Assembly (NCBI GenBank): GCA_021823385.1
Contig: JAKAOC010000048.1
Location: 1 to 9,864 of the forward strand
Length of the DNA stretch: 9,864 nt
Direction: 5' to 3'
Origin: Actinomycetes bacterium
Lineage (GTDB): Bacteria; Actinomycetota; Acidimicrobiia; Acidimicrobiales; Acidimicrobiaceae
A program made the translations under genes and the position numbers. Below, piece by piece: positions 2,135 through 9,864 of the stretch. The first letter of the stretch is position 1. Every line of letters begins with the position of its first letter. A model generated the notes under the pieces. The model made no database searches, was not told the origin of the DNA, and saw nothing but the letters and a program-made list of their open reading frames with translations.

Positions 2135-4177
2135 ATGGTTGAGGGCAGGTATCCATCTGACGACATCTTCCGCGGCGACTTCGATCCAGAGATACGCAAG
2201 AAGAAGTCCGCCGCCGCCAAGGCCATCGAGCGCAAGGCGGCAACATCAAAGCAAACCTCCAAGTCGCAGTTGAGGCGTGGCCTATCGCTCCTAGCCGGAA
2301 AAACGGAAGAACTGCCACATCGATTGTTGGGCGGCACCAAGAGTGAAGTCTCCCAGACATCCGTCGACCCCGAAGCTGAAGCGAACTTCCGCGTAGCGGA
2401 GGATTCCTCGGATGAGGCGACATCCTCGCCTACCCGAGCGATCAAGGCGTCCCAGCGCACGCCACGCATCTTCGGGCGAGCAGGAGATGACAGCTCCCCA
2501 GTGGCTCAGGACGCCGGTGAAGAGGCGAGTGAGCCATCTTCGAGCCCCATCAGCGCTCCCTTTGCGCGATCCCTCTTTTCGGAGCCGTCGGTCCGTGAGC
2601 CTGAGGCGGACGAGACCGCTTACCCTGAGGGCGCTTTTTTCGAGGATGAGGAGCCAGCATACGTCGATCGGAAGCACCGCTTCTTTTCTCGTTCACGTAT
2701 CGAGCCTGCGCCAGACGAGCCATGGGGTGAAGAGTCATCACCGCCGGACATCGACGTTCCGACCGCCCAGCCCTGGGCCGAAAGCCTGTCAGGAGGCGTC
2801 AAGCGCTTCTTCTCCCGGGTCACGCACCCGGAGACTCTTTCTGATGTGCGCGAACACGATGACGCCGGCGCTTCTCCGTGGGTAGATCCGGGCTTGGCGC
2901 AAACCGACGCGGCCATAGCCGAGACACGTGGACCCGTCGATGCGACGCTCGGTCATGACCAGGTGGGGATGCCGACCGCCAGTGCGGCACCGGCGGTCTG
3001 GCCGGTGATCCTCGAAAAGGCGAAGAACTTCTTCTTTCAAGTTGAGGAGGTGGAGCTTCCAACTCGAAAACCGTCGGGGGCCCCAACGGAGCACGGGCAA
3101 CCCTTGGGCCGTCTTGCAGCTGGACTCGGTGGTTTTCGGGCTTCCGTCACGCGCTTGGGGCAACCTTCCTCTCTTGGCACCGAGCGGGTCGTACCTGATG
3201 CCGACGACTCTTTGGTGGCGGAGAAATCGGATCCGGCGCAGCCTTCGCATGCAGAGCTAACCAGCGCCGGTTCGGTTGGCGCCTCGGGCCAAGAGGCCAA
3301 CAGCGCGTCGACGGGCCTGCCATTGCGCCGACCCGCCGGGCGCCATTTCGCAGCGGAGGGCTCGACCTGGGAGCCACCGCAATGGAATCTTCAGGCTCAG
3401 GAGCGGATCGATCCGCCATTGGCCAAGCCGAGTTCCGCATCAGCGGGTGATTTGAGGCATCGGCCCCGGCAGCGAGTCGCCGAGCGGCACATTCGGCCCA
3501 GCGCCCCGGAGCGCTTGGCGGCAAGTGCATCGGTGCCGTACACCCCGAGGCGTGTGCGTCCCCGGGGGCAAACGGGTGGCGATGGGACCACTAGCGGTGG
3601 ACTGCCATCGGGCGACCGTGCGGGACGTGAGACGGTTGCCTTGATCATCAGCGTCTGCCTGATTCTGGCAATCGTGCTCGGGATCGGCAACCTTCGCAAC
3701 GCGGGTGGCCTGGCGGCAGGCAAGACTTCGGCGGCGGATCTGGCTCCGTCCACGACCGTCGTGCCCCAGCCTTCAACTACCACGGCGCCCAGTACTACGG
3801 TCACCACGGCTCCGCCGACGACGATTGTGGTTACCACGACGACACAGCCGGCAATCGCAGCCGGAGCCAACCCCGCCAATGCCCAGGTGACCGTGAGGGT
3901 GGCAAACGGGACGAGTGTTGCCGGCGCAGCCGGCCGCATCACCAAGAAGCTCCAGAGCCTTGACTTCAATGTCGTCGTTCCCATCAACGCGACGGTGTCC
4001 AACCTGACGACGACGACCGTCTATTACTACTCGGGCTTCCAGGTGGCTGGACAGGCGGTTGCGGAACTCCTTGGCCTTCCGGCCTCGGCGGCCAAACCCT
4101 TCACCGCCGCTGCGCCGCTGCCCAATATCTATCCATCCGATGTGAACGTGGTTCTCGGGACTGACGTTGCCGGCTGA
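2135..4177 (+). CDS. Single-pass membrane protein: long disordered cytoplasmic N-terminus, TM helix, Thr-rich linker, extracellular LytR_C domain
   Basis: The function is unknown. In the family, LytR_C (PF13399-type) domains occur at the end of LytR-CpsA-Psr cell-wall glycopolymer ligases and also alone; no LCP catalytic domain is present here. Residues 1-50 are Lys/Arg-rich; about 60-495 is low-complexity, rich in Ser, Pro, Glu, Asp and Arg. One hydrophobic helix (501-518) follows GRET, with no signal peptide before it, so the N-terminus is predicted cytoplasmic. A Thr/Pro/Val linker (538-572) leads to the domain VTVRVANGTSVAGAAGRITK... ending VNVVLGTDV (about 584-677). Aromatic-basic motifs recur in the disordered part: HRFFSR (181-186), KRFFSR (223-228) and KNFFFQ (297-302). 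The ATG has a strong GGGGAGGA (2121-2128) at normal spacing. The 3' end overlaps otsB by 11 bases. Confidence 0.85.
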   Translation: MVEGRYPSDDIFRGDFDPEIRKKKSAAAKAIERKAATSKQTSKSQLRRGLSLLAGKTEELPHRLLGGTKSEVSQTSVDPEAEANFRVAEDSSDEATSSPTRAIKASQRTPRIFGRAGDDSSPVAQDAGEEASEPSSSPISAPFARSLFSEPSVREPEADETAYPEGAFFEDEEPAYVDRKHRFFSRSRIEPAPDEPWGEESSPPDIDVPTAQPWAESLSGGVKRFFSRVTHPETLSDVREHDDAGASPWVDPGLAQTDAAIAETRGPVDATLGHDQVGMPTASAAPAVWPVILEKAKNFFFQVEEVELPTRKPSGAPTEHGQPLGRLAAGLGGFRASVTRLGQPSSLGTERVVPDADDSLVAEKSDPAQPSHAELTSAGSVGASGQEANSASTGLPLRRPAGRHFAAEGSTWEPPQWNLQAQERIDPPLAKPSSASAGDLRHRPRQRVAERHIRPSAPERLAASASVPYTPRRVRPRGQTGGDGTTSGGLPSGDRAGRETVALIISVCLILAIVLGIGNLRNAGGLAAGKTSAADLAPSTTVVPQPSTTTAPSTTVTTAPPTTIVVTTTTQPAIAAGANPANAQVTVRVANGTSVAGAAGRITKKLQSLDFNVVVPINATVSNLTTTTVYYYSGFQVAGQAVAELLGLPASAAKPFTAAAPLPNIYPSDVNVVLGTDVAG

Positions 4178-7507: not shown

Positions 7508-7596
7508 AGATCATCAAGAGCGGTGTAGGGACGGGCCCGAAGATGCCGCGGCAACCAGTCGAGCGACCAGGTGCCAATGCCCGATCGATGAGGAGG
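7508..7596 (+). promoter_or_regulatory. SAM-I-type (S-box clan) S-adenosylmethionine riboswitch
   Basis: The conserved S-box core reads in order: ATCAAGAG (7513-7520), AGGGAC (7527-7532), GGGCCC (7533-7538), GGCAACC (7550-7556) and GGTGCCAAT (7570-7578). Stems can be drawn: P1 TCATC (7511-7515) with GATGA (7587-7591); P2 GCGGT (7520-7524) with GCCGC (7545-7549); P3 ACC (7554-7556) with GGT (7570-7572), capped by GTC-GAGC-GAC (7558-7567). A separate P4 hairpin is not evident, so the subtype may be a compact SAM-I or a SAM-I/IV variant. No terminator hairpin with a T-run follows. The last base of P1 is the first of the AGGAGG (7591-7596) serving the next gene, so translational control by SAM is likely. 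S-box RNAs normally switch off methionine or SAM supply genes when SAM is plentiful. Confidence 0.88.
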
Positions 7597-7607
7597 TGTG
7601 ACCCAAA

Positions 7608-8849
7608 GTGTCATACGTGGAATGCCTGGTGTGCAAGGAATGCGGCCAGACCTACGAAGCCAAGGCACTGCACGTCTGCGAGTTCTGCTTTGGCCCGCTA
7701 GAGGTTCGTTACGACTACGACGCCATTGCGGCCCACGTCAGCCACGAGTCGATCGCCAATGGCCCCCTCTCCATTTGGCGCTACCGTGACCTGCTCCCGG
7801 TGGAGGGCGAGCAGTACGTCTCCCTAGGGGCGGGCTTCACTCCGCTGGTGCGCGCCGAACGCCTTGGCAACGCACTGGGCCTCTCGGATCTTTGGATCAA
7901 GAACGACACGCTGAATCCGACCGGCTCGTTCAAGGACCGGGTGGTCTCGGTGGCGCTGTCGCGGGCCAGGGAGCTGGGCCTCAAGGTGGCCGCCTGCGCC
8001 TCCACCGGCAACCTCGCCAACTCGGTTGCCGCTCACGCTGCTTGGGCGAACATGGAAGCCTACGTTTTCGTCCCAGCCAACCTCGAACGTGCCAAGATCA
8101 CCACCACCGCCGTCTACGGCGGCAACCTGGTGGCGATCGACGGCAACTACGACGACGTCAACCGGCTCTGTGCCGAGATCGCCTCGGAGGAGCCCGACTG
8201 GGCGTTCGTGAACGTGAATGTGCGCACCTATTACGGGGAGGGTTCGAAGACCCTGGCCTTCGAAGTTGCCGAGCAGCTCGGCTGGCGGGCCCCGGACCAC
8301 GTGGTGGTGCCGGTCGCCTCGGGCAGCCAGCTCACCAAGATCCACAAGGGATTTCAGGAGCTGTATCGTGTCGGCCTGCTCGACAAGGAGCCAAAAGTCC
8401 GGATCTCGGGGGCTCAGGCGGCAGGCTGCTCGCCGGTGGCGACCGCCTTTGCCAGCGGAGTCGATGTCATTCGCCCGGTAAAGCCCGACACCATCGCCAA
8501 GTCGTTGGCCATTGGCAACCCGGCCGACGGCTACTACGCCCTCGACATCGTGCGGCGGACCGGCGGATCCTTCGGGTCGGTCACCGACGAAGAGGTTCTG
8601 GACGGCATCCGCCTTCTTGCCCAGACCGAGGGGATCTTCGCCGAGACCGCGGGAGGCGTCACCATCGCAACTCTGGTCAAGCTTGCCCGTGAAGGCGTGA
8701 TCGGCAAGGACGAGAAGACCGTCGCGTATGTGACCGGCAACGGGCTCAAGACTGTCGAAGCGATGACCGGGGCCGGCCCGACCATCACCATCGATCCTTC
8801 CCTGGACTCGTTCTTCGGGTTCCTCAAGACGCAAAGGAGCGCAAGATAG
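7608..8849 (+). CDS. metM: Threonine-synthase-family PLP enzyme; probable O-phosphohomoserine-dependent homocysteine synthase (MetM-like), otherwise threonine synthase ThrC
   Basis: This is a fold-type II PLP enzyme of 413 residues. A zinc-ribbon-like N-terminus has Cys pairs C9/C12 and C24/C27. The PLP lysine is K109 in NPTGSFKDR (103-111), and a phosphate-binding loop ASTGNLANS (131-139) follows. Threonine synthase uses O-phosphohomoserine and water. Where the ThrC enzymes I recall have PVGNAGNI before the PLP-phosphate region, this protein has PVASGSQLTKI (235-245). Three context signs favour sulfur transfer: the SAM riboswitch just upstream, a sulfur carrier gene overlapping the stop by one base (TAGTG), and no hom or thrB nearby. 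The Streptomyces MetM/MetO pair, as I recall it, makes homocysteine from O-phosphohomoserine and carrier thiocarboxylate with this gene arrangement. GTG 7608 is the start, with AGGAGG at 7591-7596. The family is certain; the reaction is inferred. Plain ThrC is the alternative. Confidence 0.78.
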   Translation: MSYVECLVCKECGQTYEAKALHVCEFCFGPLEVRYDYDAIAAHVSHESIANGPLSIWRYRDLLPVEGEQYVSLGAGFTPLVRAERLGNALGLSDLWIKNDTLNPTGSFKDRVVSVALSRARELGLKVAACASTGNLANSVAAHAAWANMEAYVFVPANLERAKITTTAVYGGNLVAIDGNYDDVNRLCAEIASEEPDWAFVNVNVRTYYGEGSKTLAFEVAEQLGWRAPDHVVVPVASGSQLTKIHKGFQELYRVGLLDKEPKVRISGAQAAGCSPVATAFASGVDVIRPVKPDTIAKSLAIGNPADGYYALDIVRRTGGSFGSVTDEEVLDGIRLLAQTEGIFAETAGGVTIATLVKLAREGVIGKDEKTVAYVTGNGLKTVEAMTGAGPTITIDPSLDSFFGFLKTQRSAR

Positions 8850-9130
8850 TGTCAGTCACCGTGCGGGTACCCACCCAGCTTCGCAGCCTCACCGATGGAG
8901 TTTCCGAGGTGTCCGTGGAGGGCAAGACGGTCGGAGAGGTCCTGACCGAGCTTGGCAAGAGCTACCCCGGATTCGCAGACCGCCTCTTCGACGACGGTGG
9001 CAACCTGCGACGCTTCGTGAACGTGTTCCTGGCGGACGAGGACGTGCGCTTCCTCGACGGGGTGGACACCCCCGTGGCCGCCGGCCAGGTGCTTTCCATC
9101 GTTCCCGCGGTTGCAGGCGGTGCCTCCTAG
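8849..9130 (+). CDS. metO: Ubiquitin-like sulfur carrier protein (CysO/MoaD/ThiS family, MetO-like) with a Gly-Gly-Ala-Ser C-terminus
   Basis: The 93-residue protein has a beta-grasp sulfur-carrier pattern: VTVRVPTQLRSLTDG (3-17), TVGEVLTELGKSYPG (27-41), LRRFVNVFLADEDVRF (53-68) and SIVPAVAGG (83-91). The RFVN...DEDVRF stretch and PAVAGG end closely resemble mycobacterial CysO as I recall it. Such carriers are adenylated by an E1/MoeB-like enzyme and thiocarboxylated at the terminal glycine, then deliver sulfide to a partner enzyme. Here two residues, A92-S93, follow the Gly-Gly, so the carrier should need trimming, as with QbsE-type and other JAMM-processed precursors. The GTG start overlaps the stop of the PLP enzyme gene by one base, with AAAGGAG at 8833-8839, which ties its role to that enzyme. 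A MoaD role in molybdopterin is unlikely from context. Confidence 0.85.
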   Translation: MSVTVRVPTQLRSLTDGVSEVSVEGKTVGEVLTELGKSYPGFADRLFDDGGNLRRFVNVFLADEDVRFLDGVDTPVAAGQVLSIVPAVAGGAS

Positions 9131-9168: not shown

Positions 9169-9195
9169 TTAGCACTCTAGTATTGAGAGTGCTAA
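9169..9195 (+). promoter_or_regulatory. CIRCE operator (HrcA binding site) upstream of groEL
   Basis: TTAGCACTC (9169-9177), nine bases, GAGTGCTAA (9187-9195): a perfect match to the CIRCE consensus and spacing. HrcA binds it and represses the chaperonin gene until heat or unfolded protein titrates GroEL. A TAGTAT at 9178-9183 inside the spacer could be the -10 box, so that HrcA would cover the promoter; no clear -35 supports this. Confidence 0.97.

Positions 9196-9222: not shown

Positions 9223-9864
<642 letters not shown>

Follow-up and report, generated by a model that had tools for sequence, protein, structure and literature searches.

A probable MetM/MetO-type homocysteine operon under an S-adenosylmethionine riboswitch in an Acidimicrobiaceae genome

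In the cysteine system CysO/CysM/Mec+ of M. tuberculosis, a CysO-type carrier feeds a fold-type II pyridoxal 5'-phosphate (PLP) enzyme, and in Wolinella succinogenes HcyS/HcyD/HcyF act together with MetY, the carrier thiocarboxylate leading to homocysteine and a metalloprotease removing the carrier tail. MetM of Streptomyces albulus is reportedly carrier-dependent as well. We analysed a stretch of 9,864 nucleotides (hereafter the window; GCA_021823385.1, contig JAKAOC010000048.1, forward strand) from a relative of the acid-loving actinobacterium Acidithrix, family Acidimicrobiaceae, in which an S-adenosylmethionine (SAM) riboswitch precedes a gene for an enzyme like threonine synthase (ThrC) and a gene for a sulfur carrier. 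The initial annotation had read this arrangement as a methionine module and not a threonine gene, with reference to a Streptomyces MetM/MetO pair. This agrees with PMC12172450, in which MetM of S. albulus is the homocysteine synthase of Hasebe et al. (2024, Appl Environ Microbiol 90:e01247-24) and a SAM riboswitch upstream of metM is implied.

The locus resembles Streptomyces MetM/MetO in the clade of its enzyme, the downstream carrier gene and the upstream SAM riboswitch. It differs in its aptamer, which has no P4, in a genome that probably also holds metX/metY, and in the carrier tail, which is Ala-Ser after Gly-Gly here, whereas seven of the eight Streptomyces-like carriers end at Gly-Gly. 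With CysO/CysM/Mec+ it shares a CysO-type carrier and a fold-type II PLP enzyme, and the same genome has its own JAMM/CysO-like/CysK-CysM row; the window enzyme, however, belongs to the ThrC branch instead of CysK/CysM, and its predicted product is homocysteine. The HcyS/HcyD/HcyF system is of MetY type and uses O-acetylhomoserine, whereas a ThrC-type enzyme using O-phosphohomoserine is predicted here. Fold, PLP lysine motif and presumed substrate are those of ThrC, from which the enzyme is set apart by its separate clade, a zinc ribbon, changes at ThrC-conserved residues and control of methionine type. We conclude that the locus is very probably a MetM/MetO-type homocysteine operon under a SAM riboswitch. 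The early reading as a methionine module is supported, as far as sequence comparison goes, by the clade of the enzyme, a hom-linked thrC elsewhere in the genome, a methionine T-box before one orthologue and the replacement of MetX across the order.

Riboswitch, enzyme gene and carrier gene

The window belongs to contig C90 in a draft genome of 2.78 Mb (333 contigs, 82.75% complete). The order is SAM riboswitch, 413-residue ThrC-like gene, ThiS/MoaD-type carrier gene and groEL with a controlling inverted repeat of chaperone expression (CIRCE). The features considered are as follows.

7508..7594, + strand: SAM (S-box) riboswitch aptamer, compact, without the P4 hairpin (RF00162)
7591..7597, + strand: Shine-Dalgarno sequence AGGAGGT of the enzyme gene (read from the sequence)
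7608..8849, + strand: metM-like gene (annotated thrC elsewhere), fold-type II PLP enzyme predicted to make homocysteine from O-phosphohomoserine in dependence on the carrier (profiles, tree, residues)
within 7632..7688, + strand: codons of the N-terminal zinc-ribbon cysteines C9, C12, C24 and C27 (conserved in the clade rows compared)
7932..7934, + strand: codon of K109 in the SFKDR motif, predicted PLP Schiff-base lysine (alignment with the SFKDR motif of ThrC)
8833..8839, + strand: Shine-Dalgarno-like AAAGGAG of the carrier gene (read from the sequence)
8849..9130, + strand: metO-like gene, ThiS/MoaD/CysO-type sulfur carrier of 93 residues (PF02597, CysO 3dwg, position in relatives)
9116..9121, + strand: Gly-Gly codons, predicted thiocarboxylate site (sequence; role from general knowledge of ThiS/CysO carriers)
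9122..9127, + strand: codons of the C-terminal Ala-Ser tail, predicted JAMM peptidase substrate (tail variable among relatives; tail/JAMM co-occurrence)

The aptamer matched RF00162 on the + strand with 62.3 bits (gathering score 44.4; E = 6.9e-13), and its 3' end lies 13 bases before the GTG start of the enzyme gene, which bears out the placement of an S-box directly before a ThrC-family gene. The "full S-box core" first described holds for helices P1-P3 and fails for the consensus P4 hairpin, which is deleted, and for three outer P1 pairs, which are non-standard. The first base of AGGAGGT (7591) is at the same time the last paired base of P1 (7587-7591 with 7511-7515). Free folding of the leader was indistinguishable from that of shuffled sequences (z = 0.50). 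An outer helix UCACA/UGUGA around the ribosome-binding site was set aside as uninformative, since the closest relatives have it unchanged and no clear counterpart shows in the others, with G018 and G024 probably compared on the wrong strand. Before MetM in the genus, the aptamer measures 87-89 bases in 10 of 11 genomes (101 in G007); in Streptomyces-like genomes it measures 128-165 bases.

A search for the enzyme in 60 genomes of the order gave 37 matches, from which G006 (34% identity) and G040 (44%) were dropped, leaving 35 MetM genomes including the window's own. A SAM riboswitch lies upstream of the enzyme in 33 of these 35; in the other two (G023 and G029) the gene match is only partial. 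The gap between riboswitch and estimated start is at most 14 bases in 32 of the 33 and 129 bases in one. Such short gaps leave no room for a terminator hairpin, from which we infer SAM-dependent control of MetM translation. Riboswitches were also found in 20/20, 8/20 and 11/20 further loci (some of these genomes being among the 35), in all eight Streptomyces-like loci and in six of six other clade loci, and in none of the ten Nitrospirota loci scanned; the scan for RNA families covered the 80 named loci apart from L109-L148, which are half of them. Eleven further riboswitch sites precede MetY in G039, hom in G042, the MetM start in G007 and unrecognised genes in the remaining eight cases; the site upstream of metY stands in a genome without MetM, and that upstream of hom is the second SAM riboswitch of its genome.

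The carrier matched ThiS (PF02597) with 53.3 bits against a cut-off of 22.5, its best solved relative is M. tuberculosis CysO (3dwg, E = 2.8e-21), and its C-terminus reads Gly-Gly followed by Ala-Ser. The stop codon of the metM-like gene (TAG, 8847-8849) and the start codon of the carrier gene (GTG, 8849-8851) share base 8849, the one-base overlap with a CysO/MoaD-like gene seen at the outset. Of 110 loci from several phyla, 109 have a carrier gene downstream of the enzyme; the 110 (30 from whole genomes and 80 from named contigs) count the window's own among them, and several genomes are represented twice, so that the loci are not independent. The single locus without a carrier has no downstream room, and the carrier of L124 is cut off by the end of its locus. 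In 107 of the 109, the carrier frame opens at most 158 bases after the end of the enzyme frame (start codons not determined), and likewise in 107 of the 109 the carrier ends in Gly-Gly with or without a short tail, whereas that of L098 ends in Trp-Gly. A carrier is also present in 24 of 26 further actinobacterial loci and in all eight Streptomyces-like genomes. The riboswitch-enzyme-carrier order is thus conserved across relatives, and the arrangement is therefore not due to chance.

The carrier end is complete in 29 genomes of the order, and in 20 of them a tail of one or two residues follows Gly-Gly. A JAMM-domain gene occurs in 20/20 tailed genomes versus 6/9 tail-less ones (Fisher p = 0.023), two of the three tail-less genomes without it belonging to one genus. 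Its frequency among tail-less genomes is as expected if JAMM also serves CysO. The co-occurrence suggests that a JAMM peptidase trims the carrier tail and so exposes Gly-Gly.

Descent and conserved residues of the enzyme

The enzyme (413 residues, GTG start) contains a PALP domain (250 bits). In a tree of 47 rows, rooted on a very long CysM row, it falls into a clade of 33 rows (support 98/99) that includes five Streptomyces-like proteins, and stands apart from a group of eight rows (support 95/85) formed by four bacterial ThrC structures, the Arabidopsis threonine synthase, the actinobacterial L253 and the two hom-linked ThrC copies of the window's genome. The genome's own CysK row (L001) matched nothing and was left out. 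The sequence of S. albulus MetM itself is outside the tree, and the clade is tied to Streptomyces through named proteins: one Streptomyces-like member has matches of up to 94% among named Streptomyces proteins, and the window enzyme is 51-55% identical to the five aligned Streptomyces-like rows. The enzyme of Acidithrix ferrooxidans is 87% identical to that of the window, and it is the same protein as MetM of G002, a genome of the window's genus, which is thus that of Acidithrix. The tree that the initial annotation had called for thus sides with its methionine reading.

The four zinc-ribbon cysteines occur in 32/32 clade rows compared, L254 (from G040) having been left out of the residue comparison. 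Three residues fixed in 7/7 ThrC rows are changed in 32/32 clade rows, namely T88 to L136, R160 to Y209 and N188 to S238 (ThrC numbering of T. thermophilus), some of which positions we take to bind the substrate phosphate in ThrC. The SFKDR motif is conserved in the clade and the ThrC rows alike, and its lysine, K109, presumably forms the Schiff base with PLP. A predicted structural model (mean predicted local distance difference test score of 82) has ThrC as its best match at a root-mean-square deviation near 12 Å, and no claim on the active site is made from it because of that deviation. A plasmid search returned no close relative of the enzyme, its best match being a Nonomuraea protein at 55%.

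L254 is a relative with 42-44% identity that branches first in the clade; its locus has a carrier gene, its genome has MetX, and no SAM riboswitch was found in the locus. This protein may have another function than MetM.

The second thrC that the initial annotation suggested looking for is present: hom and thrC lie together on one contig, and the same thrC recurs on a second, near-identical contig. The gene in the window is thus not a sole thrC beside a complete metX/metY route, the situation named at first as contrary to the methionine reading. The two copies and their neighbours (L002 on C192, L003 on C190) suggest that the assembly mixes strains or that the region is duplicated.

"Threonine synthase" is the sole product name shown among the best 120 relatives in each of two listings, many rows of which are nameless, much as had been foreseen for automatic annotation. 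The methionine capacity of many genomes is therefore probably misjudged.

MetM, MetX and the methionine-sensing RNAs

With the model cut-off of 500 bits reached by none of the 60 genomes and none of 14 controls, a score of 390 bits or more was taken as MetX; the G003 protein accepted in this way also exceeds the cut-offs of two further MetX models. No separate count was kept for MetY. PF01053 is the family of both MetY and MetB. Among the 60 genomes (own included), 35 have MetM and 33 MetX, with 13 having both, 22 MetM only, 20 MetX only and 5 neither (Fisher p = 0.0015). The contrast is sharper in the 40 genomes at least 90% complete (5 both, 15 MetM only, 19 MetX only, 1 neither; p = 1e-5), and it holds by genus (4, 13, 13 and 2; p = 0.0005) and outside the window's family (0, 10, 12 and 2; p = 7e-5), all these counts sharing ancestry and not representing independent events. 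MetM and MetX thus tend to replace each other in the order. Fifteen of the 40 well-covered genomes accordingly have MetM and no MetX; other routes, such as metA and archaeal-type homocysteine synthesis, lay outside the search.

Some scores are to be read with their loci in mind. The window's own genome was scored as MetM only despite the end of a MetX gene, and G007, one of the five genomes with neither, has a riboswitch and a MetM start at a contig end. G018 was scored as having both despite the state of its locus (L322), in which the MetM-like and carrier reading frames are both broken; this genome has MetX and a PF01053 protein, and the broken frames may reflect decay or an assembly error.

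A thrB match is present in 35/35 MetM genomes (E = 1.6e-44 or better) and lacking in 8/20 MetX-only genomes. A strong PF01053 match occurs in 20/20 MetX-only genomes; eight MetM genomes (G016, G022, G027, G034, G043, G044, G049 and G057) have none.

In L098, the lineage whose carrier ends in Trp-Gly, a T-box (2143-2441) upstream of the enzyme orthologue replaces the SAM riboswitch, and its specifier is AUG (methionine). The specifier frame, with the codon one base past the conserved GAA, was calibrated on the T-boxes of G351, whose genes were named by family search; L289 was under the cut-off in the T-box alignment, which did not include L296-L299. Four of the seven G351 leaders fit cleanly (UCC before serC, AUG before metG, UUC before pheS, UGC before cysE-cysS); that of ilvD (CUC) is read across a gap, that of a branched-chain aminotransferase (ACC) is a misfit, and the seventh stands upstream of genes that were not recognised. 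According to PMC12452182, hom-thrC-thrB is preceded by tandem T-boxes in Bacillota, and a T-box before a thrC-type gene is therefore not new in itself. The assignment lends itself to direct tests, given the natural exchange with MetX and the occurrence of one and the same enzyme behind two kinds of methionine-sensing RNA.

A literature search over titles and the beginnings of abstracts, with the primary MetM paper outside its reach, found nothing on MetM/MetO in Acidimicrobiia or on a T-box before the pair. No publication on the carrier tail surfaced either, though no search was aimed at the tail; the primary MetM paper may treat any of these points. The methionine T-box, the MetX exchange and the tail pattern are thus additions relative to the literature searched, the primary MetM paper excepted.

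Proposed pathway and competing explanations

Considering these results, we propose the following scenario. Hom and ThrB would provide O-phosphohomoserine, while a JAMM peptidase would remove the Ala-Ser tail of the carrier. A MoeB/MoeZ-type enzyme, with an adenylyltransferase and a rhodanese-like part, would convert the exposed Gly-Gly end into a thiocarboxylate. MetM would then use PLP to eliminate phosphate from O-phosphohomoserine and add the carrier sulfur at the gamma carbon, and the resulting homocysteine would lead to methionine and SAM. At high SAM, formation of P1 of the aptamer on the border of the ribosome-binding site would turn translation off. We infer every chemical step, the tail trimming and the translational control, the chemistry by homology with published work.

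Candidates for these steps are present in the genome. ThrB scored 181.8 bits (cut-off 168.25), and an activator of MoeB type scored 561 bits with NF006444 (cut-off 449), the MoeZ model NF005902 not being reached. A JAMM gene, a gene for a CysO-like carrier (tail GGSD) and a CysK/CysM-family gene stand in a row, the last of them below the curated cut-offs. About 5 kb from the MoeB-type activator lies a third ThrC-like gene (L008 on C75) on a long branch, whose best models are threonine synthases, none at cut-off.

Several observations weigh against the assignment and bear on four other explanations. The enzyme could be bifunctional, producing homocysteine with the carrier and threonine without it from the same substrate, as a second threonine synthase. 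The two reactions presumably share substrate and chemistry up to a vinylglycine-type intermediate. ThrC of M. aeruginosa, 51.6% identical to S. albulus MetM and with a metO-like neighbour, is reported in PMC12172450 to make threonine in vitro; it is described there as a threonine synthase that is also a deaminase, homocysteine not being clearly among its products. We nevertheless consider bifunctionality possible but rather unlikely, since the genome has a dedicated ThrC, several ThrC-conserved residues are replaced throughout the clade rows compared, and the regulatory RNAs identified are of two kinds, the SAM riboswitch and the methionine-type T-box.

Free sulfide as the sulfur source for homocysteine from O-phosphohomoserine, with the carrier serving another protein, is improbable. 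Eight clade members (L243 and L245-L249, with riboswitch, as well as L219 and L222) have no detectable carrier within the 3-4 kb examined, and other PLP enzymes of this fold use sulfide; against this stand the carrier gene downstream of the enzyme in nearly all loci of several phyla, mostly at the short distance given above, and the carrier dependence said to hold for the S. albulus enzyme.

An ordinary threonine synthase that responds to SAM so as to keep the threonine and methionine branches in balance would agree with the TIGR00260 (thrC) score of 297 bits (cut-off 167), with the nearest solved proteins, which are threonine synthases, and with the database names. This explanation is very improbable given the replacement between MetM and MetX across the order and the adjacent carrier gene, and a plain threonine synthase was rejected on the tree, the second, hom-linked ThrC that groups with proven ThrC, and the methionine T-box. 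Judged from its sequence, the enzyme is a threonine synthase by profile and not by descent.

The initial annotation had expected metX and metY to be absent, and in this it was not upheld. Contig C115 begins inside a MetX gene, of whose product it encodes the last 61 residues (58.9 bits), and the close relatives G003, G005 and G011 carry metY-metX alongside MetM, both proteins being confirmed by name in G003. The genome of the window and its nearest relatives thus probably also have metX/metY, and the MetM route is therefore probably an additional one here, not the sole one. Furthermore, 14 of the 22 MetM-only genomes keep a strong PF01053 protein, the type of which was resolved for the window's own genome only; there, the one strong PF01053 protein comes closest to cystathionine gamma-lyase, under the cut-off of that model. 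An enzyme acting on O-acetylhomoserine as an accessory to MetX where both occur, an option that the MetX fragment and the MetX of genus relatives bring up, is hardly credible given thrB in every MetM genome and no full MetX in 22 of the 35 (own genome with its fragment included), 15 of those 22 being at least 90% complete.

The MetM/MetO-type operon may also be viewed more widely, though tentatively. One JAMM peptidase could cut the tails of both the cysteine and the methionine carrier and so gate both sulfur flows, SAM-switched MetM could be a second supply beside an unswitched MetX/MetY, and the control RNA, whether SAM riboswitch or methionine T-box, could go with the homocysteine supplier, which is mostly MetM and in G039 MetY.

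Two observations concern other parts of the window. The long N-terminal part of a 680-residue protein (2135-4177) matches no Pfam or NCBIfam model, and its C-terminal part is a LytR_C domain. Downstream of the carrier gene, a perfect CIRCE element (9169-9195, TTAGCACTC-N9-GAGTGCTAA) precedes the groEL start at 9223, groEL having been named by reading the sequence, and heat-shock control of this gene by an HrcA-type regulator is expected.

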